From Rhizobium leguminosarum (GTDB lineage Bacteria; Pseudomonadota; Alphaproteobacteria; Rhizobiales; Rhizobiaceae), in the NCBI RefSeq assembly GCF_017876795.1, contig NZ_JAGIOR010000001.1, positions 653,501 through 717,500 on the forward strand: 64,000 nt of DNA, in the 5' to 3' direction. The notes beneath the pieces were generated by a model. The model searched no databases, was not told where the DNA came from, and was given only the letters and a program-made list of their open reading frames with translations. Shown piece by piece: positions 31,462 to 56,169 of the stretch. Both the position numbers and the translations under genes were made by a program. How positions within the stretch are numbered: position 1 is the stretch's first letter; each line of letters begins with the position of its first letter.

Positions 31462-31513
31462 CGTGGTGATTTGGCCGGCCGGCTTGCAGCCACGTTAAAA
31501 AAGTCGCTAAAGG
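31462..31513 (+). ncRNA. SAM-II riboswitch upstream of metA
   Basis: The aptamer consensus is directly readable: P1 arms CGTGG (31462-31466) and CCACG (31490-31494), the conserved TGATTT and CTTGCAG in the loop, then TTAAAAAAG and GCTAAAGGG forming the pseudoknot. SAM-II aptamers in alphaproteobacteria sit in front of methionine genes and switch them off when S-adenosylmethionine is abundant. metA begins 66 bp downstream. Confidence 0.93.
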
Positions 31514-31525
31514 GCCGCGTGCGGA

Positions 31526-31557
31526 CCGGTAGCGATTTTTTTCGCCGCCGGTTTTTT
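31526..31557 (+). terminator. Possible terminator hairpin between riboswitch and metA
   Basis: CCGG-TA-GCGA pairs with TCGC-CG-CCGG around a T6 loop and is followed by six T residues. It could act as the riboswitch expression platform by transcription attenuation. Confidence 0.55.
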
Positions 31558-39925: not shown

Positions 39926-40073
39926 AAGACTTCCTTGTAACTCGGCTTTCGGCGTCGTAGAGAACTGCCGAGACGCCTCGAAGACGCAAATATTTTTCTT
40001 TGGGGGCGCAACTAACCTAAAATCCGGGAAATAGCCATCCCCATACCGGCTTCTCCGGCGAAGAAAGCTTGGA

Positions 40074-41135
40074 ATGAACTTTTCGGCGAAAGTGTCCCCC
40101 TGGTGGACCCCGTCCGTACACGCTGATCGCCGTCCGTTCCTGATCGGGCGCAATGCGATCCAGGCGGCGCTGCGCGGGTTTTTCGCGCGCGAGGATTTCA
40201 TCGAGGTGGATACGGCGGTGCTGCAAATCTCGCCGGGCAACGAGGCGCATCTGCATGCCTTCGCCACGGAAGCGCTGACGACGGACGGGCAGAAGGCGCC
40301 GTTCTACCTGCACACCTCGCCGGAATTCGCCTGCAAGAAGCTGCTTGCGGCCGGCGAAGAACGCATCTCGTGTTTTGCCCATGTCTATCGTAACCGCGAG
40401 CGCGGGCCGCTGCATCATCCTGAATTCACCATGCTCGAATGGTATCGGGCCGGCGAAAGCTACGAGAGCCTGATGATGGATTGTGTGCGGATCCTGGCGC
40501 TCGCGGCCGAAACGGTAAAGACCGAAAAACTTGCCTATCGCGGCGGCGGAAGCGATCCCTTCGCCGGTCCGGAGCGGATCAGTGTTGCCGAAGCGTTCGA
40601 GCGTCATGCCGGCATCGATCTTCTCGCCTCGGTCGCCGCCGACGGGTCGACCGATCGCGATCATCTGGCCGCCGAGATGAAACGCGTCGGCATGCGTGTT
40701 GCCGATGACGACGGCTGGGCCGATCTGTTCAGCCGGGTGCTGGTCGAAAAGATCGAGCCGCATCTCGGCTTCGGCCGCATCACCATCCTCGACGAATATC
40801 CAATCTCGGAGGCGGCCCTTGCGCGTCCCTCGCCACGCGATCCCAGGGTTGCCGAGCGGTTCGAGCTTTACGCCTGCGGTGTCGAGCTTGCGAACGGTTT
40901 CGGCGAGCTCACCAATGCTACCGAACAGCGGCGACGATTCGAGATCGAAATGGCCGAGAAGGCGCGTGTCTACGGCGAGACCTATCCGGTCGACGAGGAT
41001 TTCCTCGCCGCAGTTTCGCTGATGCCCGAGGCAAGCGGCATCGCGCTCGGCTTCGACCGGCTGGTGATGCTGGCGACGGGAGCGTCGCGCATCGACCAGG
41101 TGCTCTGGGCGCCGGTTGCGGAGTATGGAAGATGA
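40074..41135 (+). CDS. epmA: EF-P lysine--lysine ligase (GenX/PoxA/YjeA)
   Basis: 353 residues, a class II lysyl-tRNA-synthetase-like catalytic core without the anticodon-binding domain. Motif 2 is visible in [26 protein letters not shown] (near residue 110) and motif 3 in [18 protein letters not shown] (near residue 325). It loads (R)-beta-lysine onto EF-P. It diverges from efp and overlaps epmB by 4 bp. The tight efp/epmA/epmB linkage confirms the role. Confidence 0.95.
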
Positions 41136-42184
41136 ATGCCGTCAAACCGCTCAAGAGCGTCGACGATCTGGTGATGGCAGGACTGGTCGCGCTCGCCGAT
41201 CGCCCAACGCTCGAGCAGGTTGCGGCGCATTACGCGATCGCGCTGACGCCTGTGATCAGTGAGCTCATCGACCGCACCGATCCTGATGATCCGATCGCAC
41301 GGCAATTCGTGCCTGATATAGCCGAACTCACGATCGCCCGAGAAGAACGCGCCGATCCGATCGGCGATCATGCCCATAGCCCGGTCGAAGGCATCGTTCA
41401 CCGCTATCCCGATCGGGTGTTGCTCAAGGCCGTGCATGTCTGCCCGGTTTATTGCCGCTTCTGCTTCCGGCGCGAAATGGTCGGGCCGCAGGGTCTCGGC
41501 ACGCTCGATGCGGCGGCGATGCGGGCAGCCTTCGATTACATCAGAGGTCACGAGGAGATCTGGGAGGTCATCCTGACCGGTGGCGATCCGCTGGTGCTTT
41601 CTCCGCGCCGCCTCCATGACATCATGGAGGCGCTTGCCGGGGTCGCCCATGTCAAGATCGTGCGATTCCACACCCGTGTTCCTGTTGTCGAACCGCAGAA
41701 GATCGATGCGGCGATGATCGCCGCGCTGAAGGCGAGCGGCAAGACGGTCTATGTGGCGCTTCATGCTAATCATGTCAGAGAACTGACGGCGGAAGCGCGT
41801 GCTGCCTGCGCCCGCCTCGTCGATGCCGGTATCGCCATGGTCAGCCAGTCGGTGCTGCTCAAGGGCGTCAACGACGATCCCGACGTGCTTGCGGCGCTGA
41901 TGAAGGCCTTCGTCGAAATCCGCGTCAAACCCTATTACCTGCATCATCCTGATCTGGCGCCCGGCACCGGTCATTTCAGAGTGACGATCGAGGAGGGACA
42001 GAGGATCGTCGCCGCGCTGCGCGGGCAGATTTCCGGTCTCTGTCAGCCGACCTACATCCTCGATATCCCGGGCGGTCACGGCAAGGCCGTCGTCAGTGGA
42101 AGCGCCATCCGGGCTAGCGGTGACGGATGTTATTCCGTCTCGGATCATCGCGGCGGCGAACATTCCTATCCGCCCGCGGATTGA
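41132..42184 (+). CDS. epmB: EF-P beta-lysylation protein, lysine 2,3-aminomutase family
   Basis: 350 residues, radical SAM enzyme. The [4Fe-4S] cysteines are in VHVCPVYCRFCFRREMVG (CxxxCxxC, near residue 107), followed by ILTGGDPLVLSPRRL (near residue 150) and RFHTRVPVVEPQKI. It converts (S)-alpha-lysine to (R)-beta-lysine, which EpmA transfers to EF-P. Translation is probably coupled to epmA through a 4-bp overlap. The hydroxylase EpmC of enterobacteria is not present here. Confidence 0.94.
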   Translation: MNAVKPLKSVDDLVMAGLVALADRPTLEQVAAHYAIALTPVISELIDRTDPDDPIARQFVPDIAELTIAREERADPIGDHAHSPVEGIVHRYPDRVLLKAVHVCPVYCRFCFRREMVGPQGLGTLDAAAMRAAFDYIRGHEEIWEVILTGGDPLVLSPRRLHDIMEALAGVAHVKIVRFHTRVPVVEPQKIDAAMIAALKASGKTVYVALHANHVRELTAEARAACARLVDAGIAMVSQSVLLKGVNDDPDVLAALMKAFVEIRVKPYYLHHPDLAPGTGHFRVTIEEGQRIVAALRGQISGLCQPTYILDIPGGHGKAVVSGSAIRASGDGCYSVSDHRGGEHSYPPAD

Positions 42185-42446: not shown

Positions 42447-42698
42447 ATGCATAAGACAATCCGCGACCTCGTAGCCAAATACGGCAAACTTCCTGCGTCG
42501 ATCGACCAGGTCGCCGACGATGCCGATCTTTATGCGGCCGGTCTGACATCCTTTGCTTCAGTGCAGCTGATGCTTGGTATCGAAGAGGCGTTCGACATCG
42601 AATTTCCCGACAATCTCCTGAACCGCAAATCCTTCGCGAGCATCTCGGCCATCGCCAGGACCGTCGATCTCATCCGGGACAGCCGGAAGGTCGCCTGA
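42447..42698 (+). CDS. Stand-alone carrier protein (ACP/PCP-like)
   Basis: 83 residues with the acyl-carrier fold. The 4'-phosphopantetheine attachment serine is Ser35 in DLYAAGLTSFASVQLMLGIE, where LTS replaces the usual DSL of fatty-acid ACP. AFDIEFPDNLLNRKSFASI is the helix 2-3 region. It is the first gene of a compact operon and is followed, with overlap, by an acyl-CoA-dehydrogenase-like gene and then by an amino acid:[carrier protein] ligase. By analogy with characterised Bradyrhizobium and Agrobacterium systems, it is the acceptor of the activated amino acid rather than a fatty-acid carrier. The ribosome site is TTGGAGTGATGGG. Confidence 0.9.
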   Translation: MHKTIRDLVAKYGKLPASIDQVADDADLYAAGLTSFASVQLMLGIEEAFDIEFPDNLLNRKSFASISAIARTVDLIRDSRKVA

Positions 42699-43879
42699 TG
42701 AACTTCCCCGTCAAGATCATGCAGGACGGTCTTGTCGCTCGGGTCGCCCGCGTCGCCGAAATCGCAGCGAAACACGCCGATGCGGTCGACGTCGAAGCCC
42801 GCTTTCCGCGCGAAGCCGTGGATGCAATGAAGGCCGAAAGGCTGCTCGGCATCCACGTGCCGCGCCAATTCGGCGGCGAATCCGCCTCGATCACCGAGAT
42901 CGCCGAATTGTGCTCGATGCTCGGCCAGGCCTGCGCTGCAAGCGCCATGGTCTTCGCCATGCATCACATCAAGCTGTCGAGCCTTGTTGAACACGGCCCC
43001 GACAGCGAATGGCATTGCGGCTTCATGCGCCGCATTGCCGCCGAGCAGTTGCTGATCGCATCGGCCACCACAGAAGGTGGTATCGGCGGAAACTTGCGCA
43101 ACAGCATTTGCGCGGTCGAGGTCGATGGTGACGCCTGCCGTCTGGAAAAGGATGCGACCGTCATTTCCTATGGCTCGCATGCCGACGCCATTCTCATCAC
43201 CTCGCGTGCCCACGCGCAGGCGGCTTCCTCCGATCAGGTGCTGACGGCCTTCCTCAAGGACCAGTATACGCTCCAGAAAACGCACGTCTGGAACACGCTC
43301 GGCATGCGCGGCACCTGCTCCGACGGATTCCTCTTCAAGGGGCAAGCGCCCGCGCATCAGATCTTGCCGAAGCCTTTCGCGGAGATCGCCGCGCAATCCA
43401 TGCTCGCCTCCTCGCACCTGTTGTGGAGCGGCGTCTGGTACGGCATCGCGGTCGACGCCGTCGCGCGCGCCCAGACCTTCGTGCGCGCCGCCGCCCGCAA
43501 GGCGCCGGATTCCCAGCCGCCGGGCGCGCTGCGCTTGGCCGAGGTTTCGAACCTGCTGCAAATGGTGAAATCCAATGTGGTTGCCGGCCTCAAGGCCTAT
43601 GAGGATGCCAAGACCGATGTCGACAGGCTGTCTTCGATGGGATTTGCGGTGGCGATGAACAACGTCAAGGTCGCTTCGTCCGAGACGATCCTGGAGATCG
43701 TCAACCATGCCATGCTGATCTGCGGCATCATGGGTTACAAGAACGGCACGCCCTTCAGCCTCGGACGCCATCTGCGCGACGCGCATTCCGCACAGCTGAT
43801 GATTTCGAACGACCGCATCCTCGGCAATACGTCGAGCATGCTTCTTGTCCATAAGCAGGACACTAGCCTACTGGGGTGA
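42698..43879 (+). CDS. Acyl-CoA-dehydrogenase-like flavoprotein of the carrier-protein operon
   Basis: 393 residues with the N-terminal helical ([25 protein letters not shown]), middle beta (near [11 protein letters not shown]) and C-terminal helical domains of acyl-CoA dehydrogenases. At the C-terminal active-site loop, where many family members have Glu in a FNTEYPVEKLMRDA-type segment, this protein has [19 protein letters not shown] with no obvious Glu. It overlaps the carrier gene (TGATG) and just precedes the ligase. It probably acts on a carrier-bound aminoacyl thioester, as prolyl-carrier dehydrogenases do, rather than in beta-oxidation; this is inferred. Confidence 0.85.
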
Positions 43880-43884
43880 CAGTC

Positions 43885-44793
43885 ATGGATATGCAGACCT
43901 CGTTTCTGGACCGGCTTTTCGAAGCCGGCCTGCTGATCGATACCGGCATCGACGGGCTCTATGGCCGCAGCGGTCAGTTCGAAGAGGTGATCGCCGCCTT
44001 CGAGCGCCTCATCGACACGGTCGGCGGCGCCGACGGCGCTGAGGCCATGCGCTTTCCGCCCGGCATGAACCGCGCCTTCTTCGAGAAGAGCGGCTACATG
44101 AAGAGCTTTCCGCAGCTCGCCGGCACGGTGCACAGCTTCTGCGGCAGCGAACTCGATCATGTCAGCCTGCTGCAATGCATGGAGGTCGGCGACGACTGGA
44201 CCGCGGGGCAGGAGGCGACCGACATTGTGTTGACGCCGGCTGCCTGCTATCCGCTCTATCCGACGATCGCCAAGCGCGGCAACCTGCCGAAGACGGGCGG
44301 CCTCTTCGACCTGCAATCCTATTGCTTCCGCCACGAGCCGTCGAAAGATCCGGCCCGCCAGCAGCTGTTCCGCATGCGTGAATATGTCTGCATGGGCACC
44401 GAAGAGCACGTTACCGATTTCCGCCAGCGCTGGATGGATCGCGGCGTCGAGATGATGAAGGCCGTCGGCCTCGACGTGACGATCGACGTCGCCAATGATC
44501 CGTTCTTCGGCCGCGCCGGCAAGATGCTCGCCAACAATCAGCGCGACCAGAACCTGAAATTCGAACTGCTGATCCCAATCACCTCGACCGCCCATCCCAC
44601 CGCCTGCATGAGCTTCAACTACCATCAGGATGCTTTCGGGACGAAGTGGGGTCTCAATCTGGAAGACGGCAGTGTCGCCCACACCGCCTGCGTTGGCTTC
44701 GGACTGGAGCGGATCGCGCTGGCTCTCTTCCATCATCACGGGCTCGACGTGAAGGAATGGCCGGCCAGCGTACGGAAAGCGCTGTGGGGCTGA
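43885..44793 (+). CDS. Amino acid--[carrier protein] ligase (class II aaRS homologue)
   Basis: 302 residues. It is a truncated seryl-tRNA-synthetase-like catalytic core with no tRNA-binding arm: motif 2 in [15 protein letters not shown] and motif 3 in [17 protein letters not shown]. Cys121 (PAACYPLY), Glu166 (RMREYV) and Cys269 (HTACVG) fall at the spacing of the zinc-binding Cys-Glu-Cys set of the characterised Bradyrhizobium Gly:[carrier protein] ligase. Such enzymes adenylate a small amino acid (Gly or Ala) and attach it to the phosphopantetheine of the neighbouring carrier. ATG at 43885 or GTG at 43876 could be the start. The amino acid is not determined. Confidence 0.92.
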
Positions 44794-44801
44794 GCCGGTC
44801 G

Positions 44802-45764
44802 ATGACATCGGTATTTTCGGGAATCGACCCGGGAACCTACCGGGCGCACGCGCTGCATTCCGGCGAGCGCGCCTGGCCGGAAACCAATTGCTACGTCGAT
44901 CTTTGGATCGAGGTGCTGGCGACCTCAGGCGTTGCGCCTGAGGCCATGCTCGGCTTCACCCTGACGCAGGATTTCGAGGGCGACCAGTTCACCTTCTTCA
45001 AGGCGCCGCTCGAGGACCTCGAGGCGCTCTACGGCATCCGCGCGACCGAGCTTGCCATCTACGACCGCGTCGAACGGCATGTCGAAGTGCAGATCGCGCG
45101 GGGCCGTCTCTGCCTGATCGAGATGGATTCCTTCTACATGCCGGATACGCGCGGCACCGCCTACCGGCAGGAGCACGGCAAAACGACGGTCGCGATCAAC
45201 CGGCTGGACGTTGCGGCCAGGCGCGTCGATTATTTCCACAATGCCGGCTATTTCCGCCTCGAAGGCGAGGATTTCGACGGGCTGTTCCAGTTGCAGCTGA
45301 CGGAAGGTAGCCCGCCGTTCCTGCCCTACACGGAATTTGCCCGCTTCCCGGAAAAGCCCGCGGATGAGGCGCATCTGCGTTCGACCGCACGGCGGCTTGC
45401 GGGTTTTCATTTCGCCAGGCGTCCCGCCGTAAATCCGATCCGCGCCTTCGCGGCCGTCTTTCCCCAGCAGGTGGAAGCGGTGGCGGAACGGCCGTTCGGC
45501 TTCTTCCACAAATACGCCTTCAACACGCTTCGCCAGGTGGGCGCCAATTTCGAGCTTGCGGCCGATTACCTGACCTGGCTTTCGCCCGGTGATTTCGCGG
45601 CGGCAGCCGAGCATGCGCGGCGCATTTCGGAAGTGGCGAAATCGGTGCAGTTCCAGCTTGCCCGCGCTGTCACCCGCAGGAAGTTCGAGCCGTTGCAGGC
45701 AGCCCTTGATCCGGCTGCCGATGCATGGGATTCCATGATGGCGTCGCTTGCGGGGCGAATCTGA
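44802..45764 (+). CDS. DUF1839-family protein
   Basis: 320 residues. TNCYVDLWIEVLATSGVAPEAM (residues about 30-51), QDFEGDQFTFFKAPLEDLE and LIEMDSFYMPDTRGTAYRQEHGKT (near residue 105) are the conserved blocks. The family is a regular neighbour of amino acid:[carrier protein] ligases. The conserved Cys, Asp and His residues in these blocks could form an acyl-transfer site, so it may move the aminoacyl group from the carrier to its final acceptor. That is inference; no activity is established. It starts 8 bp after the ligase and ends 16 bp before the GH2 gene. Confidence 0.88.
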   Translation: MTSVFSGIDPGTYRAHALHSGERAWPETNCYVDLWIEVLATSGVAPEAMLGFTLTQDFEGDQFTFFKAPLEDLEALYGIRATELAIYDRVERHVEVQIARGRLCLIEMDSFYMPDTRGTAYRQEHGKTTVAINRLDVAARRVDYFHNAGYFRLEGEDFDGLFQLQLTEGSPPFLPYTEFARFPEKPADEAHLRSTARRLAGFHFARRPAVNPIRAFAAVFPQQVEAVAERPFGFFHKYAFNTLRQVGANFELAADYLTWLSPGDFAAAAEHARRISEVAKSVQFQLARAVTRRKFEPLQAALDPAADAWDSMMASLAGRI

Positions 45765-45780
45765 GGCCGGAGATCTGACC

Positions 45781-48255
45781 ATGCGGGGGCGTTTGGCAAG
45801 CATCGGTGCGGAGGAAAGTCTACTTTCCGAAGGCTGGAACCTGATCCTGACGGAGCCGGGCGCCTGCGCCGTGCCGCACGACATCCCGCTCTCCGCCCGG
45901 TTCATCCCAGCGCCCGTTCCCGGAACCGTCGCCGCAGCGCTCGAAAAGGCCGGTCTCTTCGATCGGGAAAATCCCGAACCGTTGAACACGAGAGATGCCT
46001 GGTATCTCTGCCGGCTCTTCGATGCCGAGCCCGGCGCGGCAATCCTGCGTTTTGCAGGGCTCGCGACGCTTTGCCATGTCTTCCTGAACGGCCAGGAAAT
46101 CCTGTTTTCCGAGAGCATGTTCACGGCCCACGAGATTCCGGTGACGCTTTCGGGCGGCGACGAACTGGCGCTCTGCTTCCGCGCGCTCGGCCCCCGCCTG
46201 TCGGAGCCGGGCCCGCGCGCACGCTGGCGGCCGCAGATGATCACGCCGGCGGGCCTAAAGAATTTCCGCACGACGCTGCTCGGTCATATGCCGGGCTGGT
46301 GCCCCGATATCCATGCCGTCGGCCCATGGCGACCGATTTCGATGGTGCGGCGCAATCCCGTCTCGATCGACAATGTCTCCATCCGCGCGGTGTTGGAGGA
46401 AAGTGGCGTCGGCCGTCTCAGCGTTTCGCTGCACAGCAATGCCGAGCATCCCGTGATGCTGCTGCGCTGCGGCGGGATGGAGCAGCCCTTCGAGAAGATC
46501 GGCGACAATCATTATTCGGCTATCCTCAAGCTTTCCGACATCGAGCCCTGGTGGCCGCATACCCACGGCGCTCCGCGCCTCTATGAGCCGACGCTGATTT
46601 CCGACGGTGTGGAATATCCGCTCGGCACCACCGGCTTCCGGCGTATCGACGTCGACCACGGCGCCGATGGCGATGACTTCGCGCTCACCGTCAATGGCGA
46701 ACGCATCTTCTGCCGCGGCGCGGTTTGGACGACGGCCGATATCGTCCGATTGCCGGGCGGGCGGACAGATTATGAGCCGTTTCTGCGGCTTGCCGCTGGC
46801 GCCGGCATGAACATGATCCGCATCGGCGGCACCATGGCCTACGAGACGCCTGATTTCTTTGCGCTCTGCGACGAACTCGGCCTGCTGGTCTGGCAGGATT
46901 TCATGTTCGCCAATTTCGACTATCCGCGCAACGACAAGGCTTTTCTCGGCCATGTGCATGCCGAGGTCGAGGAATTCCTGCATGGCGTCCAGGCGTCGCC
47001 TTCCCTCGCCGTGCTCTGCGGCGGCAGCGAAATCCACCAGCAGGCGGCGATGCTCGGTCTGCCCATGGAATTCTGGAGCGGGCCGGTCACCGATGAAATC
47101 ATCCCGGCCATCGTCGCCCGTATGCGTCCCGACGTGCCCTATGTCCCGAACTCGCCCTATGGCGGAGCGATGCCGTTTTCACCCAGTGCTGGTATTGCCC
47201 ATTATTACGGCGTCGGCGCCTATATGCTACCGATTGCCGATGCGCGTCGCGCCGACGTTCGTTTTGCCTCCGAAAGCCTCGCCTTCGCTCATGTGCCGCA
47301 GCAAAGGACGCTGCAACGGCACCTCGATGTGCCGGCTGTGCACAGCCCGCTGTGGAAGGCCCGTGTGCCGCGCGACCGCAGCGCATCGTGGGATTTCGAG
47401 GATGTTCGCGATTTCTACCTGCAGCTTCTCTACGACCTCGATCCGGCCCAGCTGCGCCGCGAAGATCCGGGGCATTATCTCGATCTCTCCCGCGCCGTCA
47501 CCGGCGAGGTGATAGAAGAGACCTTTGCCGAATGGCGGTGCAAGGGCTCCTCCTGTAACGGCGCGCTCGTCTGGACGTTGCAGGATCTGCTGCCCGGTCC
47601 CGGCTGGGGCGTGATCGATTCCACGGGTGAGCCAAAGCCGGCCTGGTATGCGATGCGCCGTGCATTCCGGCCGGTTCAGGTGGTTTTCACCGACGAGGGG
47701 ACCAACGGTCTCGACGTGCACATCATCAACGAGACGGATGCCGCCCTCGATGTGGAACTCGAAGTCATCTGCCTGCGTGACGGAAAACAGCAGGTGCTCA
47801 GCGGCAGCAGGGCCTTCAAGCTGGCGGCAAGGGATACGGAACGTATTGCCTGCACCGCGCTGTTTGGCGCCTTTTTCGATACGACCTATGCCTTCCGTTT
47901 CGGGCCGCCGTCGCATGATGTGAGTGTCGCGCGCCTGCGTTCGCTGGCAGATGGCGCCATCCTCGCGGAAGGCTTCCATTTCCCGTGCGGACGGGGGAAG
48001 GCACTGCATGATGCCGGCATTGAAGCATCGCTCGGCAGGGATGACGACAACTGGTTCGTCGATCTGAGGACCGACCGGCTGGCGCAATCGGTGCATATCG
48101 ACGTCGAAGGCTACCGGGCCGGCGACGACTGGTTCCACCTTGCTCCCGGCACGACGCGGCGCGTGACGCTCTCGGCGCTGCCCGGAACCGAAAGCGATAT
48201 CGCGCCTGCAGGCGAGATCAGAAGCCTGGGAAGTTCGCATCGTGTCGCGCTGTAG
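45781..48255 (+). CDS. Glycoside hydrolase family 2 protein (beta-mannosidase-like)
   Basis: 824 residues with the GH2 order: sugar-binding jelly roll, immunoglobulin-like domain, then a TIM barrel. FCRGAVWTTADIVRLPGGR and MNMIRIGGTMAYETPDFFALCDELGLLVWQDF correspond to beta-mannosidase blocks. The probable acid/base is Glu in LAVLCGGSEIHQQ (CGNNE in mannosidases), the nucleophile Glu in VRFASESLAF. No signal peptide is seen, so it may act in the cytosol on an intermediate or need another route out. It is the fifth gene of the carrier-protein operon, joining amino acid activation to glycan metabolism. Confidence 0.88.
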   Translation: MRGRLASIGAEESLLSEGWNLILTEPGACAVPHDIPLSARFIPAPVPGTVAAALEKAGLFDRENPEPLNTRDAWYLCRLFDAEPGAAILRFAGLATLCHVFLNGQEILFSESMFTAHEIPVTLSGGDELALCFRALGPRLSEPGPRARWRPQMITPAGLKNFRTTLLGHMPGWCPDIHAVGPWRPISMVRRNPVSIDNVSIRAVLEESGVGRLSVSLHSNAEHPVMLLRCGGMEQPFEKIGDNHYSAILKLSDIEPWWPHTHGAPRLYEPTLISDGVEYPLGTTGFRRIDVDHGADGDDFALTVNGERIFCRGAVWTTADIVRLPGGRTDYEPFLRLAAGAGMNMIRIGGTMAYETPDFFALCDELGLLVWQDFMFANFDYPRNDKAFLGHVHAEVEEFLHGVQASPSLAVLCGGSEIHQQAAMLGLPMEFWSGPVTDEIIPAIVARMRPDVPYVPNSPYGGAMPFSPSAGIAHYYGVGAYMLPIADARRADVRFASESLAFAHVPQQRTLQRHLDVPAVHSPLWKARVPRDRSASWDFEDVRDFYLQLLYDLDPAQLRREDPGHYLDLSRAVTGEVIEETFAEWRCKGSSCNGALVWTLQDLLPGPGWGVIDSTGEPKPAWYAMRRAFRPVQVVFTDEGTNGLDVHIINETDAALDVELEVICLRDGKQQVLSGSRAFKLAARDTERIACTALFGAFFDTTYAFRFGPPSHDVSVARLRSLADGAILAEGFHFPCGRGKALHDAGIEASLGRDDDNWFVDLRTDRLAQSVHIDVEGYRAGDDWFHLAPGTTRRVTLSALPGTESDIAPAGEIRSLGSSHRVAL

Positions 48256-48263
48256 ATCAAAGA

Positions 48264-48317
48264 GATAGAACATGATGTCGTCCGAAAACCGCTCGCACTT
48301 TTCGGCATCATGCTCTC
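48264..48317. repeat. Palindromic intergenic repeat, inverted relative to 13751-13802
   Basis: AGAACATGATGTCGTCCGAA on the left and TTTTCGGCATCATGCTCT on the right pair as a long imperfect hairpin between the GH2 and glycosyltransferase genes. Confidence 0.75.
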
Positions 48318-48370
48318 GGCCTGACGCTCCCCGCGAAAAATGATGCCGATCCATTGAGAAAGACCGTGAT

Positions 48371-49549
48371 TTGAGAACGACATACCGCTTTTTGCGTGCC
48401 CATGTGCTGCAGCGGCTGATCCCGCGGTCGCGTCTGGCCTTCAATCCGCGCAAGCCGGTGAAAATCGTCGGCTATCTCTCGATGGCTGTCGGCATTGGCG
48501 AATCGGCAAGGCTCTGCGCCGGCGCCCTCTCCGAAGCAGGAAGGGCGATTTCGCTTTCCGACGTCAGCACGCATCCCGACGAGAAGTCCTTTGCCGGATG
48601 GACGCCGTCGCCTCTCTCGACCGAGGCGCCGGGAAGCCGTATCTGGCATCTCAATCCGCCGATGCTGCCACGCGCCATCCTGAAGAAGGGTGTCGCGAAT
48701 TTCACCCGCGCCTTCAATATCGGCTATTTCGCCTGGGAGCTCGAAGTCGTGCCGGCGGAATGGCGCAATGCGATGCACTACATGAACGCGGTCTTCGTGC
48801 CGTCGGAATTCACCCGACGGGCGATCGCGCCGCTCACCAAGGCACCCGTCATCGTCGTTCCGCATCCCGTCACCACGGCGCCGGCAACGGAAGGCATGCG
48901 GGAGAAGTTCGGCATCGAGAAGGACGCCTTTCTCGTCAGCTTCATTTTCAGCGCCGGCTCGTCGATCAACCGGAAGAATCCGCAGGCGGTGATCGAAGCC
49001 TTCAGGATATTCGCCGCCGAAGCCCCAAGCGCTTTCCTGTTGATGAAGGCCAGCGGCGATGTGAACAAGGATGAAGGCCTGCGCGCGCTGGTCGCTTCGG
49101 TTAAGGGCGACGCCCGGATCAGGATCATCACCGGCAGGCTGTCGAACGCAGATATCAACGGTCTCATCCGTTCTTCCGACGCCTATCTTTCGCTGCATCG
49201 TTCCGAGGGTTTCGGCCTGACGGTTGCCGAAGCGATCATGCAGGGCACGCCCGTCATCTCTACCGCCTGGTCGGGCACGGTGGACTTCTGCGACCCCGAC
49301 AATACATGGCTGGTCGACTCTTCCCTCATTCCTGTTGTCGATACCCATCCCGAATTTGCCGGGCTTGCGGGTGCGGTCTGGGCGGATCCCTCTGCGCAAG
49401 CGGCGGCGGCGCACCTTGGGGACATCTTCCGCGCGCCCGAGCTTGCGCGGGAGAAGGCTGAGAAGGCGCGGGCCTTCCTGCTGCGCTACCTCGCTGAGAA
49501 CAGCTATGAGAAAGCGCTTCAGGCGCTGGCGGCGATGCAGGCGAGCTAA
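48371..49549 (+). CDS. Glycosyltransferase, GT-B fold (GT4-like)
   Basis: 392 residues. The N-terminal Rossmann-like part begins KIVGYLSMAVGIGESARLCA; the C-terminal donor-binding half has the GT4 signature HRSEGFGLTVAEAIMQGTPVISTAWSG (near residue 277), with the two glutamates spaced as EGFGLTVAE. It transfers a sugar from a nucleotide donor, probably in cell-surface glycan assembly. Translation starts at TTG 48371 behind GAGAAAGACCG. The stop codon TAA lies inside the CTAAG target of IS copy 2, so the coding sequence survives the insertion. Confidence 0.87.
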   Translation: MRTTYRFLRAHVLQRLIPRSRLAFNPRKPVKIVGYLSMAVGIGESARLCAGALSEAGRAISLSDVSTHPDEKSFAGWTPSPLSTEAPGSRIWHLNPPMLPRAILKKGVANFTRAFNIGYFAWELEVVPAEWRNAMHYMNAVFVPSEFTRRAIAPLTKAPVIVVPHPVTTAPATEGMREKFGIEKDAFLVSFIFSAGSSINRKNPQAVIEAFRIFAAEAPSAFLLMKASGDVNKDEGLRALVASVKGDARIRIITGRLSNADINGLIRSSDAYLSLHRSEGFGLTVAEAIMQGTPVISTAWSGTVDFCDPDNTWLVDSSLIPVVDTHPEFAGLAGAVWADPSAQAAAAHLGDIFRAPELAREKAEKARAFLLRYLAENSYEKALQALAAMQAS

Positions 49550-49617
49550 GGATCTGACGCCATATAAGCACTGCATATTTTGACAAACCGGTGTCTGGCT
49601 TATGTCCGGATTGAAGG

Positions 49618-49959
49618 TCAGTAGTTGCGACCGTTTTGCTGTTTGAGCTTCTTGATACGGTGCCGTTGATAGGCGTCGATTTGCCGGAACGGCGGCATCC
49701 GTTTGTTAAAGATGAGATGCGTGATGGAGACGATGCAGGGGGTTTTGGTTTCCGGTCCGCCGATGTCCAACGCGCACACAATCCCGCCCTCTTCTCCCAT
49801 GTAGAAAAGGCTTGTCACGTTGCAACCATCGGGGATCTCGAGATCCGGGGATTGCTTGGTCAGCGTTATTTTAAGCGTTTGAGACAGCCTCGTTTCGAGG
49901 GGAAGTGACGCCTCGAGTTCACGAACAAGGTGATCGGTTTTCTCAGGATCATCGATCAT
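49618..49959 (-). CDS. Accessory protein of unknown function carried by the IS (copy 2)
   Basis: 113 residues, identical to the product at 35621-35962, starting MIDDPEKTDHLVRE inside the 3' end of the transposase gene. Same doubts as for copy 1: no recognised family, probably translated by coupling. The identity of the two copies points to a very recent duplication. Confidence 0.7.
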   Translation of the reverse strand: MIDDPEKTDHLVRELEASLPLETRLSQTLKITLTKQSPDLEIPDGCNVTSLFYMGEEGGIVCALDIGGPETKTPCIVSITHLIFNKRMPPFRQIDAYQRHRIKKLKQQNGRNY

Positions 49960-51196
49960 CGGCAACACTCTCGGCGATAGCGCTATCGGACACAACGGAG
50001 GTGGGCGAAATCGTGTAGTTCCACTCACCGTGGAAGGGATCACGATCAATATTGATTGCATTCATTTCAGCATCGGTGATCTTGATGGCCTTGGGATAGT
50101 CATTTTCGTCGAGGCAACATTGAACGTCGAGCCCGTTGGCCGTCGTCGTGGCCCCGATCAGTTGAACGATGACCTCATGACTGACGAGGGGCTTGCCGCG
50201 CCAATTCTGTGTGATGAATGCAAATAGCCGGTGTTCTATGCGGTTCCATTTGCTGGTCCCCGGCGGGTGGTGAGCGACCGTGATAGCTAACCCAGTTTCA
50301 TTGGCGAATGATTGAAGCTCGCGCTTCCACAGTCGCACACGGGCCCCGTTGCTGCCACCGCAATCGGCGGTAATGAGTAGACCGGTTGAACCAGGATAGC
50401 GGCTCTTTCCCAAGACATTCCACCACCGTCGAATGCTCTCTACGGCAAAGGCGGCGGTGTCATGATCGATGCCGACATTCACCCAACCCGAGTTGTTGGT
50501 GATGTCGTAGACGCCGTAAGGTGCGACCTTGCCGAGTTCGGGTATCTTGAAGTCGTGAACGCGCACGGGTTCGGGGCCGCCTTTGGGACGCAGCTCACGC
50601 CCGCCGTTCTTGAAATCGCCAACCAGCTCCTTTTTCTTTGTGTCGACCGAAATGGCGGCCTGGCCGGCCGCCTGGAACTGCTTGATCTTCTCGTTGATGT
50701 GTTCGAACTGGGTGTCGCGGTCAGGATGAGACGCCCCCTCCAAGGTCTTCTTGTTGGCCTGGAGGCTGAAGCCAAGCTTGCGCAGCAGCCGACCAACCAA
50801 CTTCTGGCTGGCCGTAAAGCCGCGTTGTGCCAATGCGCCGGCAAGGTGGCGCTGGCTTCTGCTCACCCACAACAATGCTGCTTCAGGATCGCCACGGATC
50901 GCCGATTGAACCAATTCTTCAAGTGCAGCCAAGAGGCCCGGCTCAGTCTCGATCTTTGGCCTGCGGCCGCCGCCCGGCCGCCGAACCCGGCGTTCCAGTC
51001 GTGCATCTGCGGTCCGCAACTCCGTAAGACCGCGCCCGATCGTACTGCGCGCAACGCCGGTCGCCGCCGAAACCGCCGTCACTCCACCCCGGCCCGCCGC
51101 GCGAGCCTCGGTTGCCGCCAACAAACGCCGTGCCCGCTCATCGAGATAAGGCGCAAGCGTCTCAAAGCGAGCTTTGATCGCCGCGATATCAATCAT
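49949..51196 (-). CDS. ISAzo13-family DDE transposase (copy 2)
   Basis: 415 residues, identical to the transposase of copy 1, with the same N-terminal helix-turn-helix and DDE residues (Asp185, Asp278, Glu321) and an uninterrupted frame. Both copies are therefore potentially active and could supply transposase in trans. Confidence 0.92.
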   Translation of the reverse strand: MIDIAAIKARFETLAPYLDERARRLLAATEARAAGRGGVTAVSAATGVARSTIGRGLTELRTADARLERRVRRPGGGRRPKIETEPGLLAALEELVQSAIRGDPEAALLWVSRSQRHLAGALAQRGFTASQKLVGRLLRKLGFSLQANKKTLEGASHPDRDTQFEHINEKIKQFQAAGQAAISVDTKKKELVGDFKNGGRELRPKGGPEPVRVHDFKIPELGKVAPYGVYDITNNSGWVNVGIDHDTAAFAVESIRRWWNVLGKSRYPGSTGLLITADCGGSNGARVRLWKRELQSFANETGLAITVAHHPPGTSKWNRIEHRLFAFITQNWRGKPLVSHEVIVQLIGATTTANGLDVQCCLDENDYPKAIKITDAEMNAINIDRDPFHGEWNYTISPTSVVSDSAIAESVADDR

Positions 51197-51383
51197 CCAG
51201 GTCGCTCAAATTCATTCGCCCACTGAATCAGAAAGTTTAACCTCCGTCCAGCATCGCTCATCTCTACACCAAGTAATCTACCAAGATCTAACGAATCGTT
51301 TGTTCCGTCTCAGGCCCTAAGGTGAGGTCGTCACTCCGCTTTATTTTAACATTTTCGCATTAGAGATGACGGGTATGCGGCTT

Positions 51384-51491
51384 TAGAGCATGTCGCGCAA
51401 AAGTGTGCAGCGGTTTTGCGATAACGACATGCGTAAAAACAAAGGCCCAAAGCGCGAGGAGCGAATCTGAAAGATCGCGACGCGCTTTGGA
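51384..51491. repeat. RIME-like intergenic mosaic repeat, copy C (inverted)
   Basis: Inverted version of 21768-21872: GCATGTCGCG...CGACATGC, T-poor linker, then AAGCGCGAGGAGCGAATC...GCGCTTTGG. It ends about 20 bp before the start of the flippase-fusion gene, so the repeat may shape its leader. Confidence 0.8.
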
Positions 51492-51512
51492 CCGATCCTG
51501 GCGGATGGACAG

Positions 51513-54500
51513 ATGTCGAAGGGTATTATCGCAAATTCGGTGATGAACGCGGCAGCAGGCATGCTGCTGCTTCTGACGGGCTTCGTCTCGTCGATCATAA
51601 CCGCACGGCTGCTCGGGCCGGAAGCCAACGGCATCGTCGCCTTCTCGCTCTGGCTGGTGGTCACGGGCGCCTCGATCGCCGAACTCGGCTCCAGCATCAC
51701 GCTGTTGAAGACCCTGCCGCAACTTTCGGCGGAAGGATACGACGCGCGCCGCCGGCGCGGTTTCGCCGCCATCCTCGTCAGCTTCATGATGTTCTCGACG
51801 GTCGTGCTGCTGGCGCTCTACGCTCTGTTTTTCCTGACCTCCGAGGAGATGCACTGGGCCGATACCGCGCCCTCCGTCGCTCTGGTCACCGGCGTGCTGT
51901 TCTTCGTCCAGGCGATCGGATCCTTCGTCAAATTTTACCTGATCGGCGAAAAAAAGCTTGGTGCCTTCTTCCGGCTGACGGTCGCCGTCTCGATCTTGCA
52001 GCTCGCCGGTGTTGCTGTCGGTGCCGTTTTCTATGGCGTCGAGGGTGTTCTCGTTGGTTATGCGCTCGGCCAACTCGTGCTGTTTTTCGCCACGCTGCCG
52101 ATCCTTCTTGCGCGGCGCGACTGGTGCGGGGTCTCGCTGAAATCGCTCGCCTCCTCCTCCGTCATCCTGTCGATCCAGTTCATCATCGATTCCATCTTCC
52201 TCAACCGGCTCGAACTGCTCTTCCTGCAGCAGTTCTGGTCGGTGGAGATGGTCGGCTACTACGCCGTCGGCCTGTCGATCGCCAATATCGCCCTTCAACT
52301 GCCGATCCAGATGACCGGTAGCCTGCTGCCCTATTATTCCGAGCGGCGACACAACAGCGACGATTCGACCTTGCCGGTCGAAGTCTTCGCCGCCGTTACC
52401 CGCAGCATGGCCTATATCGTCTTGCCGATGAGCCTCGGGCTTGCAGCGATCTCCAGCGAACTGGTGCTTGTGGTGTTCGGCGAGGCGTTCCGCCGCAGCG
52501 GCACGGTGGTGGCGCTGCTGGCGCTCGTCGCGCCCGCCTATACCTTCATGCAGATCCTCAGCCTCTACCTGTTGTCGATGGACCGGGCCCGCTCCCGTCT
52601 GAACATCAGTGTGATAGGTGGCCTTCTGATGGTAGTCGGTTGTTTACTGATCGTACCTAGGCTTGCTGCCGAGGGTGCCGCACTCGTGCGCATCCTCGTC
52701 TTCGTTGCGATGTCGGTGATGATGATCAGACAGACAGGATTCGGCTCCCAGCTTTCAGGTCTCTACACGAGCCTGACGAAGGTGACGCTCGCCGCCGCGC
52801 TCTGCGCTTGCGGAGCGATTTCCGTGCTGGAATTCCTGCATGGCCCGGCCGGACTGCTGGCTGCGATCATCGCCGGTACGTTCTGCTATTTCGCGGCGTT
52901 GCGTGTGCTGCGCGCCGTGCCGGGCGAGGATGTCGACGTCATGCGCTCCATTCTCGACAAGATGCCATCGCTGCTACGCCGGCCTGTGGGGCACGCGATC
53001 AATTTCATTGCGCCGCGGCTGCCCGGCGATCCCGATCGCGCCAAGGTCGCGCCCGGTGAATTCTCGCTGGAGCCGGCCGAGGGCGCGGGACGCAGCGCCG
53101 CCCTGCCTGTCGTTTTCGACGGCACGGTCGGGCTGTTCATGCCCGAGAACCCTCTAGCGAAGATGCGATCGGCGGCCGTGCTCTTTGTCAGCCCGTGGGG
53201 TTTCGAGGAGATGTGCAGCCGCAAGTTTTTCCGCGTCGCGGCCGAGCATTTTTCCGACATCGGCGTGCCGAGCCTGCGCTTCGACTATCGCGGCACCGGC
53301 GATGCGCTCGATTTCGGCGCGCTGCCGGCAAGGCTGGAAACCTGGGAAAATTCGATCCGCGCGGCAGCCGCAAAGCTGAAGTCGCTGAGCGGCTGCGACC
53401 GCGTCATCCTCATCGCCCAGGGCCTCGGCGCAACACTTTCCCAGCGCATCGGCTCCTCGATCGAGGGCGTCGACAGCTTGGTCATGCTGGCCCCGGTGCT
53501 GAGCGGCCGGGCCTATCTGCGTGAACTCAACATGTGGTCCAGGATTATCGATGCCGATCTCGGCCTCGGCAAGGAGCACGTCCAGACGGCGAAGGTGCAG
53601 ATCGCCGGGTTGGTCATGCCTGAGGAGATCGCTGCCGAGCTCGGCAAGCTCAGCATCGCTTCACCCCAGGGGCTTGCTGCCTCGCGCTATCTGATCCTTG
53701 AACGTCCCGCCAAGGCCGAGGATACCGGCTTTGCCGATGCGCTGAGGGCGCTGGGCGCCGATGTCGAGCAGAGGGCTTTCGAAGGCTATGACGAGCTCGC
53801 CACCAATCCGCTGTTTGCCAAGACGCCGAATGATGTCATCGCGCTGTTGACGACGTGGCTTGAGGCAACGACGACGGAGACGTCCGCGGCCCATTCATTT
53901 GCAGCGATCGAGAACCCGCCGCTTGCGGGTGACGGCTTTATGGAAACGCCGGTCCGTTTCGGAAGCCATGATCACTTGGTCGGCGTTGTCAGCCGGCCGC
54001 TGGGCGAGATCAAGGGCAATGCCGTGCTGTTCCTGTCGACGGCCTATGACCGGCATGCCGGCTGGGGACGGACGACGGTTGATATGGCCCGCGAGCTCGC
54101 GCGGCAAGGCGTCGTTTCGCTGCGCTTCGATTCCGCCAATGTCGGCGACAGCCCGCCGCGGCCGGATGCACCGGAACAGGTGCTTTATTCGGATACGCAG
54201 ACCGCGGACGCGGTCGCCTCGCTCGATCTGCTCGAAAGCATCGTCACCGGTCCGGTCATGGTCGCCGGCCGATGCAGCGGCGGTTATCTCGCCTTCCGCG
54301 CCGGGGTCGCCGATGAACGTCTGAAGGCTGTCGTCTCGATCAATCCCTTTGTCTATTACTGGGACCCGAAGATGCCGGTGCGCAAGGAGCATATCGTTTC
54401 CGTTCCCCGCAGCCTGGATGACTACGGCCAGCGCCTGGCGCGGCTCGATACGCTGAAGCGGCTGTTGCGCGGCCAGGTGGATGTGGTTTCGGCGCTGCAG

Positions 54501-54824
54501 AATGTCGTCATCGCCGCCGGCCGCCGGCTGTCGCCGTGGATCGCGCCGCTGCTCGAGCAGCTTCCCGACCGACGCCATATCGCCCGCGAGGTCCGGCATT
54601 CCTTCGCGCTGTTCGGCAAACGCAAGGTGCCGCTGACGCTGATCTACAGCGAGGGCGATGTCGGGCTCGACCACGTTTATTTCCATTTCGGGCCGCGCGG
54701 TGCCAGGCTTTCCCGCTATCCGAACGTCCGGCTGCTGATGCTGCCGGATGCCGACCACAATCTGACGCCGCCGCAGTCGCGCAAATTCGTACTGGACGAG
54801 ATCATTCGTCTAGCGAGAGCGTGA
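51513..54824 (+). CDS. Polysaccharide flippase fused to two alpha/beta-hydrolase domains
   Basis: 1103 residues. Residues about 1-480 are a Wzx/MATE-like lipid-linked oligosaccharide flippase with 12-14 helices (start ANSVMNAAAGMLLLLTGFVSS). Two alpha/beta-hydrolase domains follow (about 540-790 and 810-1100). The first has IAQGLGA where a GxSxG nucleophile elbow is expected (Gly637 for Ser), so it may be non-catalytic. The second has VAGRCSGGYLAF, with Cys921 as nucleophile, plus YSEGDVGLDH and LPDADHNLTPP for the acid and histidine. Glycan export with acyl transfer or hydrolysis is implied. It stands directly after IS copy 2 and completes the glycan cluster. Confidence 0.87.
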   Translation: MSKGIIANSVMNAAAGMLLLLTGFVSSIITARLLGPEANGIVAFSLWLVVTGASIAELGSSITLLKTLPQLSAEGYDARRRRGFAAILVSFMMFSTVVLLALYALFFLTSEEMHWADTAPSVALVTGVLFFVQAIGSFVKFYLIGEKKLGAFFRLTVAVSILQLAGVAVGAVFYGVEGVLVGYALGQLVLFFATLPILLARRDWCGVSLKSLASSSVILSIQFIIDSIFLNRLELLFLQQFWSVEMVGYYAVGLSIANIALQLPIQMTGSLLPYYSERRHNSDDSTLPVEVFAAVTRSMAYIVLPMSLGLAAISSELVLVVFGEAFRRSGTVVALLALVAPAYTFMQILSLYLLSMDRARSRLNISVIGGLLMVVGCLLIVPRLAAEGAALVRILVFVAMSVMMIRQTGFGSQLSGLYTSLTKVTLAAALCACGAISVLEFLHGPAGLLAAIIAGTFCYFAALRVLRAVPGEDVDVMRSILDKMPSLLRRPVGHAINFIAPRLPGDPDRAKVAPGEFSLEPAEGAGRSAALPVVFDGTVGLFMPENPLAKMRSAAVLFVSPWGFEEMCSRKFFRVAAEHFSDIGVPSLRFDYRGTGDALDFGALPARLETWENSIRAAAAKLKSLSGCDRVILIAQGLGATLSQRIGSSIEGVDSLVMLAPVLSGRAYLRELNMWSRIIDADLGLGKEHVQTAKVQIAGLVMPEEIAAELGKLSIASPQGLAASRYLILERPAKAEDTGFADALRALGADVEQRAFEGYDELATNPLFAKTPNDVIALLTTWLEATTTETSAAHSFAAIENPPLAGDGFMETPVRFGSHDHLVGVVSRPLGEIKGNAVLFLSTAYDRHAGWGRTTVDMARELARQGVVSLRFDSANVGDSPPRPDAPEQVLYSDTQTADAVASLDLLESIVTGPVMVAGRCSGGYLAFRAGVADERLKAVVSINPFVYYWDPKMPVRKEHIVSVPRSLDDYGQRLARLDTLKRLLRGQVDVVSALQNVVIAAGRRLSPWIAPLLEQLPDRRHIAREVRHSFALFGKRKVPLTLIYSEGDVGLDHVYFHFGPRGARLSRYPNVRLLMLPDADHNLTPPQSRKFVLDEIIRLARA

Positions 54825-54845
54825 CCAGAATTTCAGCAAGCTGGA

Positions 54846-56024
54846 TCAGATGCCTTCGACGGCGACGATATCCAACGATCTGTAGAGATCGATATAGTGT
54901 CCGGCGACGATATCCCAGGAATAGCCGCGCGCGGCGTCGAGAAGCCCAGCGCGAACGGTCTCCGGTTGGCGCGAAAGATCTTGATAGGCCGCTTCGATCG
55001 CGGTGGCGGCAGCCTCAGGACGGGTGAAATCGGCAAGCATGATAACAGGATGCCGGTCGGCAAGCCTCGCAAAGGCATCGTTGGCGTTCAGCACCGGCAG
55101 CAGCCCGGCGCTCATCGCCTCCAGCGCCACCAGGCCGAAACCTTCATATTCCGAGGCGGAGGCAAAGAGCGAGGCATCCGTAATGATCCGCCGAATGGCG
55201 CCGTTGTCGGGTGAGACGTGCAGGGTGACGTAACCGGTAAGTTTCCGGCTTTCGATCGCGGCTTCGACATCCGCCTGGTTCAGATCGGATTCGGCGCCGA
55301 CGATGTCGAGATGCCATTCCGGGTCGCGGGTCTTCAGCATGACCATCGCATCGAGCAGATAGTCCAGCCGCTTGTTCACCGAGAACCGGCCGATGGTGAC
55401 GATACGGCGCTTTGCCCGGCGCGAAGCGGTGTCGGCGAACTTGCCGATATCGGCGCCGTTTTCGATCAGCTTGCTGTCGGGCACGATTTCCGAAAACTGT
55501 TTGAGGTCGGAGGCGCTGCAGCAGACGACACGGCGATAGGCCATCGCCGAAGCGCGGGTCAGCGTCCGGAACCAGATCTTCTTGATCGCCGCGTATTTTC
55601 GCGTGTGGAAGAAGCCGCCATGGGTGGTGACGATCATCGGCTTGCGATGCAGCAGCCGGCCCCAGGCGAGCGCGTCGAAGAAGAAGTCGATGGCATGGAC
55701 GTGCACGAGATCGGCATCGGCGAGATGACGGAAAATCTCAGGCGCCAGCGGATAACGGCTGCTACCAGACCAGGGAATGCGCACCACCTCGATGCCGTCG
55801 AGGTTTTCGCGCGGCGGCAGCTTGTCCTCAGGTGCGGTGAACAGTGAATTGAGCGTGACGACGCGGACGCGATAACCGCGCCGGACAGTCTGGCGAGCGA
55901 GATTGGCGACCACGTCTTCCAGGCCGCCGCGGTTAGGCAGGAACTGGCGCACGACATGGACGATCAGCGGCGCCGTTTCCGGCTGCGACTTTTCGCGCAC
56001 CCTATCTGCCTCGACGATCGCCAT
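54846..56024 (-). CDS. Glycosyltransferase family 4 protein
   Basis: 392 residues. IVHVVRQFLPNRGGLEDVVANLA is the acceptor-domain glycine loop, and IRRIITDASLFASASEYEGF then GLVALEAMSAGLLPVLNAND is the GT4 nucleotide-sugar signature near residue 285. It probably adds a hexose to a membrane-linked glycan. I chose the ATG at 56022-56024, preceded by AGGTGG, over one 21 bp upstream. It converges on the flippase fusion gene with 21 bp between stop codons, so it is adjacent to but transcribed separately from the carrier-protein cluster. Confidence 0.88.
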   Translation of the reverse strand: MAIVEADRVREKSQPETAPLIVHVVRQFLPNRGGLEDVVANLARQTVRRGYRVRVVTLNSLFTAPEDKLPPRENLDGIEVVRIPWSGSSRYPLAPEIFRHLADADLVHVHAIDFFFDALAWGRLLHRKPMIVTTHGGFFHTRKYAAIKKIWFRTLTRASAMAYRRVVCCSASDLKQFSEIVPDSKLIENGADIGKFADTASRRAKRRIVTIGRFSVNKRLDYLLDAMVMLKTRDPEWHLDIVGAESDLNQADVEAAIESRKLTGYVTLHVSPDNGAIRRIITDASLFASASEYEGFGLVALEAMSAGLLPVLNANDAFARLADRHPVIMLADFTRPEAAATAIEAAYQDLSRQPETVRAGLLDAARGYSWDIVAGHYIDLYRSLDIVAVEGI

Positions 56025-56169
56025 TTTCCACCTATCGCTGCGCATGTCGCCCCGAGTTGAGGCGGCACTCTTATAGCAACGACCAGATCTCTCCGGCGTT
56101 AAGCCGCGGTTTAAGCGACGTCCCGAAAGGCGATTCTTCGTGAAAAAGGTTAATCGTATCTGATTGCTT

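Follow-up and report, generated by a model that had tools for sequence, protein, structure and literature searches.

In the Dlt system, the amino acid is activated by DltA, an ANL adenylating enzyme, and transfer takes place outside the membrane. Amino acid:[carrier protein] ligases, which resemble class II aminoacyl-tRNA synthetases (aaRS), are said, after the work of Mocibob from 2010 and 2013, to charge their carriers with Gly or Ala. For the surroundings of such a ligase, a note in proof from 2010 listed an acyl carrier protein (ACP), a redox enzyme, the uncharacterised protein Atu2574, a glycosidase and liposaccharide genes, and predicted an amide link of the amino acid to a cell-surface sugar (PMC2922099). 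In Burkholderia cenocepacia, the Bep locus Bcam1330-1341 (bepA-L) encodes Wza, Wzc, an acyltransferase, glycosyltransferases (GTs), Wzx and ManC and is essential for biofilms (PMC3584217). Here we analysed a stretch of 64,000 nt (the window; contig NZ_JAGIOR010000001.1, positions 653,501 to 717,500 of the forward strand) within a 7.58-Mb Rhizobium leguminosarum genome, in which a five-gene core encoding ACP, a flavoprotein, the ligase, a DUF1839 protein and an enzyme of glycoside hydrolase family 2 (GH2) is followed by a flippase fused to a double alpha/beta-hydrolase, here called HYD (Table 1). We consider it moderately probable that this carrier-dependent system adds an amino-acid-derived acyl group, at the cytoplasmic face of the inner membrane and before Wzx/MOP flipping, to a glycan that is lipid-linked and probably contains mannose.

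Gene linkage was assessed in the best 80 of 587 named DUF1839 loci, the nearest of which came from Rhizobium of the leguminosarum/etli group, plus 29 further DUF1839 loci. The order ACP-flavoprotein-ligase-DUF1839-GH2 was kept in 78 of the 80 named loci and is therefore not due to chance, so that gene-order conservation, a check proposed in the first-pass annotation of this DNA, was borne out; of the two exceptions, L099 is cut by a contig end within the module and L070 is a 6.5-kb contig carrying an incomplete ligase. Family profiles matched GH2 in 80 named and 27 further loci, ACP in 78 and 28, the flavoprotein in 79 and 28, and the ligase in 80 and 28, and tblastn found GH2 in 79/80 named loci. 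Missing-gene cases were confined to L070, L099, L188 (a contig that lacks GH2 and holds nothing of the module but a second DUF1839 copy, apart from the core) and L159 (genome G195), in which GH2 was not beside DUF1839 and stood together with HYD on another contig. The same order was present in annotated records of Mycetohabitans, Azospirillum, Caballeronia, Phyllobacterium and Shinella. At the level of genomes, the ligase was found in 25/25 searched members of the window's genus (G000-G024) and in 2/16 others; among 387 genomes of the class, 21 carried the ligase family (13 over the cut-off) and 8 carried DUF1839, and these 8 all fell among the 13. Within the window, the gene set named in the first-pass annotation (ACP, flavoprotein, ligase, DUF1839, GH2, GT4, flippase-hydrolase fusion and second GT4) was recovered in full by family profiles, and the tight spacing from ACP to GH2 that it had described corresponds to gaps of -1, -4, +8 and +16 nt, followed by +115 nt to the first GT4 gene (GT4a), with the GH2 start taken as ATG 45781; an alternative TTG start lies at 45748, in a frame that is also open.

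A finding new in this analysis is that HYD acts like a sixth member of the core. It is the hydrolase half of the fusion in the window and a protein of ~600 aa elsewhere, and its gene overlaps GH2 by 4 nt in two Azospirillum records and in Mycetohabitans. Flippase and HYD shared one open reading frame (ORF) in 50/80 named loci (50 of the 55 that bear a flippase) and were separate genes in 5 others; a separate HYD adjoining a flippase was seen in L134, L179, L181, L246, L247 and L252. Among 397 genomes of the phylum, DUF1839 occurred in 20, HYD in 21 and both in 20 (Fisher p = 8.8e-33, ignoring phylogeny), and in the window's own family, among the genomes listed, 11 carried DUF1839 together with HYD and 12 carried neither. 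Among named families, the best matches to HYD were, from the N- to the C-domain, hydrolase 2 and hydrolase 1 of exopolysaccharide loci of the exosortase-A type. Membership in these two families was rejected on score, as both domains fell below the cut-offs (TIGR03100, 72.8 versus 168.45 bits; TIGR03101, 67.4 versus 202.75 bits). In the C-domain, Cys417 of the G-x-C-x-G motif and His578 were kept in 45/46 rows, the remaining row being a gap, and the nucleophile position in the elbow motif of the N-domain was occupied by Gly (31 rows), Arg (14) or Ser (1). Judged by these residues, the N-domain is dead, having lost its nucleophile, and the C-domain has a Cys nucleophile. A Cys at the elbow favours acyl transfer, as in polyhydroxyalkanoate synthases and Cys-type thioesterases. 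Two variants were also seen: in L216 (442-2301), a 620-aa open frame with a Cys at the elbow and a TIGR03100 score of 166 versus 168.45 bits may be another fused hydrolase pair, and genome G152 holds a reduced ACP-ligase-HYD set (L166, 5958-10916, minus strand) with the flavoprotein, DUF1839 and GH2 not nearby.

The active sites of the core enzymes were examined by counting residues in dereplicated homologues from the related loci, with DUF1839 numbered from 44799, GH2 from the TTG at 45748 and the ligase from the GTG at 43876. Ser35 of ACP was kept in 45/45 homologues. In the ligase, the zinc residues C124, E169 and C272 were invariant in 45/45, and in an alignment over residues 19-303 they matched their counterparts in the Bll0957 chains of known structure (3mey/4h2w); these are the triad C121/E166/C269 of the first-pass annotation, which had counted from the in-frame ATG at 43885. 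The ligase scored 26.7 bits against PF00587, just below the cut-off of 29.3, and was identical to 4h2w in the 11-residue segment that differs between 4h2w and 3mey. The flavoprotein passed the PF02771 and PF00441 cut-offs, both domains of the acyl-CoA dehydrogenase (ACAD) fold. Its residues 366-371, which, counting from the RD motif, we take to be the position of the catalytic Glu of medium-chain acyl-CoA dehydrogenase (MCAD), held Glu in 0/45 rows, and within residues 359-376 Glu appeared in 2 rows only, at 372 and 375; PDB relatives of the flavoprotein include nitrososynthase-type enzymes. In GH2, E428 and E509 were present in 71/71 homologues and aligned with Glu residues of 2vjx, and presumably form the pair of catalytic acid/base and nucleophile. 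No strongly hydrophobic signal-like stretch was found in the seven GH2 N-termini inspected, and the enzyme is therefore probably cytoplasmic. For DUF1839, C31 was conserved in 60/63, T/S129 in 62/63 and H147 in 63/63 rows, giving a putative C31-T129-H147 triad of which the T/S and the H were our choice; earlier modelling had assigned this family a papain-like fold and a C-(T/S)-H triad, together with a conjectural role in glycan metabolism (PMC10318531). The three sequences without the Cys were the in-operon copies of Cupriavidus-type loci, in which second DUF1839 copies (L188, L190 and L193) keep the triad. Loci with two DUF1839 genes were L193 (15713-16960 and 20741-21721), L190 and L187/L188.

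Export-type loci around the module or around HYD count in favour of the glycan link. In Cupriavidus metallidurans, the module lies amid genes for Poly_export/SLBB, a low-molecular-weight phosphatase, Wzc, ManC, GT4 and a sugar transferase, and in G660, a genome outside the class, HYD lies amid Wzx, Wza, Wzc, acyltransferase and GT4 genes, ~20 kb from DUF1839. One B. cenocepacia locus (L281) begins with a sugar transferase, a Crp-type regulator, ACP, flavoprotein, ligase, DUF1839 and GH2, continues with a sigma54 activator carrying a VpsR domain, ManC, two GT4 genes, Wzc and two ORFs without a Pfam match, and ends with Wzx, GT4, HYD and Wza. Two papers describe two regulators of the Bep locus, the CRP/FNR protein BerA (Bcam1349; PMC3584217, PMC5552954) and the RpoN activator BerB (Bcam1342; PMC5552954). 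Because regulators of the BerA and BerB types flank the core in L281, we infer that the five core genes are among Bcam1343-1348; in the part available, PMC3584217 does not mention Bcam1343, 1344, 1345, 1346 or 1348, and it lists Bcam1334, inside the Bep locus, as a TIGR03100 hydrolase.

From the observed gene linkage we propose a pathway in which the amino acid, its oxidation, the acceptor and the transferase are all predicted. The ligase would adenylate Gly or Ala and load it onto ACP, as we infer from the family's reported activity, and the flavoprotein would then oxidise the carrier-bound aminoacyl group. N- or alpha-oxidation appears likelier here than alpha,beta-desaturation, because the Glu at the MCAD position is missing and nitrososynthase-type enzymes are among the PDB relatives. 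DUF1839, as a Cys enzyme, would transfer the acyl group to an amino sugar, an amide-forming role predicted in print in 2010, and GH2 may trim or rebuild a beta-linked sugar of the acceptor, a role proposed because its Glu pair is conserved and a signal peptide was not seen. At the flippase, HYD would finish, transfer or proofread the acyl group through its Cys nucleophile, with the dead N-domain perhaps binding the carrier or the glycan; transfer to the lipid-linked glycan may thus fall to DUF1839, to HYD or to both. Flipping and polymerisation would be left to the local export machinery, a step suggested by gene linkage. Retention of the catalytic residues, namely the Cys of DUF1839, the Glu pair of GH2 and the Cys of HYD, counts in favour of this scheme.

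Several observations weigh against acylation of an exported glycan as the function of the module. The chemistry given to DUF1839, GH2 and HYD in this setting is at every step a prediction from sequence, and the co-occurrence of DUF1839 with HYD depends on phylogeny. Genome G658 has HYD and lacks ligase and DUF1839. HYD was present in 18/22 genomes examined, and the 4 misses, all ligase-bearing (G098, G345, G160 and G039), belong to a group of six in which the ligase has no DUF1839 gene next to it. The ligases without DUF1839 in L167 and L168 adjoin homoserine O-succinyltransferase and Cys/Met-type pyridoxal-phosphate (PLP) genes, and those in L167 and L176 adjoin genes for an AMP-binding ligase, a short-chain dehydrogenase/reductase and a thiamine-pyrophosphate enzyme, neighbourhoods hinting at another end product. 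Since the ligase occurs without HYD, and in three of those four genomes in such non-glycan settings, the set of ligase, ACP and flavoprotein is not tied to glycans alone. The tie between HYD and the flippase also has gaps: 4 of the 59 named loci with HYD had no flippase-profile match, only 2 of 19 further HYD loci had one, and among nine stretches with a detached HYD a flippase adjoined it in L246, L247 and L252, those other than L248 having either no flippase match or genes outside the Pfam scan. In L246 GT4b accompanied flippase and HYD, remote from the core, and in L248 a flippase lay within about 5 kb of HYD, its end 7.4 kb from the HYD start, and a GT4b-like gene stood in the interval. 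In the window itself the flippase-HYD fusion is parted from the core by an insertion. For the 14 kb around the core, the records of Mycetohabitans and Caballeronia list no Wza/Wzc-type genes, and in several core stretches export-type genes besides GH2 and HYD were not listed in gene tables that are themselves incomplete. Mirror-tree correlations of 0.84-0.92 were not used as evidence because orthologues within one genome correlate anyway.

The first-pass annotation had tied the later glycan genes to the core by neighbourhood only and had expected GH2, GT and flippase genes to co-occur with the ligase. The link now goes beyond neighbourhood, given that GH2 is part of the core (80/80 named loci), that HYD is present in 20/20 DUF1839 genomes, and that Wza/Wzc/ManC-type genes are neighbours in C. 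metallidurans and B. cenocepacia. The expected co-occurrence extended only in part to the flippase (55/80), GT4a (34/80) and GT4b (54/80); present in only 34-55 of 80 loci by profile, these genes were rejected as core genes and are accessory, which limits the glycan link. Its statement that the end product is unassigned holds for experiment, and none of the matches listed in our literature searches was a paper assigning it; the product is not unpredicted, since the note in proof of PMC2922099 had the same glycan idea in 2010.

Three other explanations were weighed against the same evidence. The one that survives best, although we regard it as unlikely, is that the product is small, an exported glycoconjugate or a diffusible metabolite in which a mono- or oligosaccharide carries an aminoacylated, oxidised amino acid, rather than a modified polysaccharide; GH2 would then act as a transglycosidase and the flippase would export the lipid-linked product. 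Stand-alone ACPs, oxidases and papain-like Cys enzymes are typical of small-molecule clusters such as that of butirosin. One such Cys enzyme, BtrH, is described in PMC10318531; in addition, the several core stretches listing no Wza/Wzc-type genes and the core copies adjoining nif genes on symbiotic plasmids would suit a small product. What argues against it is that in several lineages HYD adjoins a flippase or Wza/Wzc genes, and that in 50 loci it shares its ORF with the flippase.

Amino acids on lipopolysaccharide (LPS) cores are known. The acyl group might accordingly go to another envelope acceptor, an LPS core or a lipid, with the glycan genes merely co-located, and the terms 'liposaccharide biosynthesis' and 'cell-surface sugar derivative' in PMC2922099 would suit such an acceptor; we find this improbable, more so than a small product, in view of the Wza/Wzc/Wzx-type export neighbours in C. 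metallidurans and B. cenocepacia and of the wild-type-like LPS profiles reported for Bep-locus mutants in bcam1330, bcam1331 and bcam1332 (PMC3584217). Least probable is a module for turnover or quality control, in which DUF1839 and HYD hydrolytically remove mischarged aminoacyl-ACP or trim glycans, as the alpha/beta-hydrolase and GH folds, the frequent peptidase activity of papain-like enzymes and the quality-control role proposed for Bcam1334 (PMC3584217) would allow, for a dedicated ATP-using ligase, a carrier and an oxidase point to synthesis and the elbow Cys of HYD (45/45 rows with a letter) better fits acyl transfer than hydrolysis.

Coordinates of the features in the window are collected in Table 1.

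Table 1. Features of the module and its surroundings, in window coordinates
Feature	Coordinates	Strand	Basis
ACP, stand-alone carrier protein, phosphopantetheine Ser35	42447..42698	+	NF005480, 123 bits vs cut-off 72
ACAD-fold flavoprotein	42698..43879	+	PF02771 + PF00441
Amino acid:[carrier protein] ligase, aaRS class II-like	43876..44793	+	NF005479, 524 bits vs cut-off 357
DUF1839, papain-like Cys enzyme, predicted acyltransferase	44802..45764	+	PF08893, 448 bits
GH2, beta-mannosidase-like	45781..48255	+	PF22666 + PF17753; best PDB matches are beta-mannosidases
GT4 glycosyltransferase (GT4a), accessory	48371..49549	+	Pfam; 34/80 named loci
ISAzo13-family insertion, ends approximate	49551..51311	not assigned	Alignment to relatives
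ISAzo13 transposase	49949-51196	-	NF033519, 567 bits
MOP/Wzx-type flippase part of fusion	51513..53010	+	PF13440
HYD (hydrolase-2-like + hydrolase-1-like) part of fusion	53025..54824	+	TIGR03101 + TIGR03100, each below cut-off
Whole flippase::HYD fusion, 1103 aa	51513-54824	+	
GT4 glycosyltransferase (GT4b), convergent, accessory	54846..56045	-	Pfam; 54/80 named loci

The insertion that separates GT4a from the fusion had been overlooked in the first-pass annotation. It was not present in 5/5 aligned relatives, and the ISAzo13 transposase was matched in 0/80 related loci; terminal inverted repeats of at least 12 bases, with two mismatches allowed, were not found at its inferred ends. Because Rhizobium sp. 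NLR16a keeps GH2, a GT4 gene and the fusion in this order on the same strand, with gaps of only 42 and 192 nt, the insertion in the window has probably cut one transcription unit. A stretch of ~110 bases 5' of the fusion (51383-51491) matches other sites in the loci of relatives and is possibly an interspersed repeat. Directly upstream of the module (39356-42184) lie genes for elongation factor P, an EpmA-like protein and a radical-SAM (aminomutase-like) protein, with an EpmA match in 71/80 related loci, and a SAM_alpha riboswitch was detected at 31453-31530 (81.7 bits). Outside the window, second core copies stand directly 3' of nifHDKENX-fdxB on symbiotic plasmids of R. acidisoli FH23 (L266, 9335-15484) and R. 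gallicum IE4872 (L268, 9640-15499); GH2 is split across frames in the former and annotated as a single gene in the latter, and the former also has a short ORF, labelled exopolysaccharide production repressor, which overlaps the beginning of the ACP gene.

Linking the module to a flippase-bound Cys-hydrolase and to the Bep neighbourhood supplies a specific polymer to examine, defined catalytic residues and clean mutants, and the core in B. cenocepacia adjoins genes like those of a published biofilm polysaccharide under c-di-GMP control. If acylation of an exported glycan is correct, the chemistry by which amino acids decorate exopolysaccharides of Gram-negative bacteria would extend further than known, with a bearing on biofilm charge, plant attachment and nodulation.

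Compared with earlier work, the glycan link has been known in outline since 2010. The new elements are the co-inherited HYD part, the active-site parallel and the anchor in a studied polysaccharide locus; the available part of PMC2922099 does not mention HYD, the flippase fusion, the pairing of a Cys-nucleophile domain with a dead one, the exosortase-A parallel or Bep. Like the Bep locus, L281 holds ManC, GT4s, Wzx, Wzc, Wza and HYD, to which it adds the five-gene core, flanked by a Crp-type regulator and a sigma54 activator, the same regulator types as BerA and BerB. The gene order, however, matches Bcam1330-1341 only partly, since in L281 Wza adjoins HYD and Wzc lies between GT4 and Wzx, whereas Wzc and two more genes separate Wza from the hydrolase in the published locus (PMC3584217); L281 also comes from another strain, and its correspondence to Bcam numbers is our assignment. 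In the window, no Wza, Wzc, ManC or Ber regulators were found near the module in the families scanned.

The resemblance to BtrH, the ACP:aminoglycoside acyltransferase of butirosin, is that of a papain-like Cys enzyme which would pass an acyl group from ACP on to an amino sugar. The two differ at the level of family, as no PF14399 (BtrH type) match to the window's DUF1839 was reported at E values up to 0.001, DUF1839 being the only family found. The hhalign probability for the DUF1839-BtrH comparison was 3.8-9.3%, 2 of the 7 initial BtrH rows (L275 and L276) having been excluded from later comparisons as apparently mis-framed, and its score of 26.7 was reached by 0/60 column-shuffled alignments (mean 15.8, maximum 25.2). 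With Dlt, the module shares the activation of an amino acid on a small carrier protein and a surface polymer as its destination; it differs in its aaRS-like ligase and cytoplasmic Cys enzymes, and the window ACP scored 28 bits against the DltC profile, below the cut-off of 68.

The closest parallel to HYD itself was found in loci of the exosortase-A (PEP-CTERM/XrtA) type, where a nucleophile-less hydrolase 2 is followed by a Cys-nucleophile hydrolase 1, a description that is ours and not a published definition; the word hydrolase is not in the main text of the 2006 exosortase-system paper, as far as available (PMC1569441). In the loci fetched, hydrolase 1 had the elbow Cys in 7/7 (six over the TIGR03100 cut-off), and hydrolase 2 had Arg at the elbow in 4/4, two of these scoring above the TIGR03101 cut-off and the other two matching weakly. 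When ten neighbours were scanned in four such loci, the AMP-forming ligase ligase_PEP_1 was present in three and a PLP decarboxylase in two; of two small ORFs beside the hydrolases, one was without a match and one encoded a carrier protein (PF00550), placed between ligase and hydrolases. The front ends differ, with an adenylation-domain-related ligase and a PLP decarboxylase (dCO2ase_PEP1) in the exosortase-A loci, as opposed to the aaRS-like ligase, DUF1839, flavoprotein and GH2 of the module, whose HYD domains also lie under the family cut-offs. Collectively, these comparisons tentatively suggest, as a possibility to which we give well under even odds, that Gram-negative bacteria have a general system for carrier-dependent exopolysaccharide aminoacylation in which the HYD pair, at the flippase, is the shared enzyme on the acceptor side, fed by either of these front ends with an amino acid that may be pre-oxidised, in which, unlike in Dlt, the acyl group would be added inside the cell before flipping.

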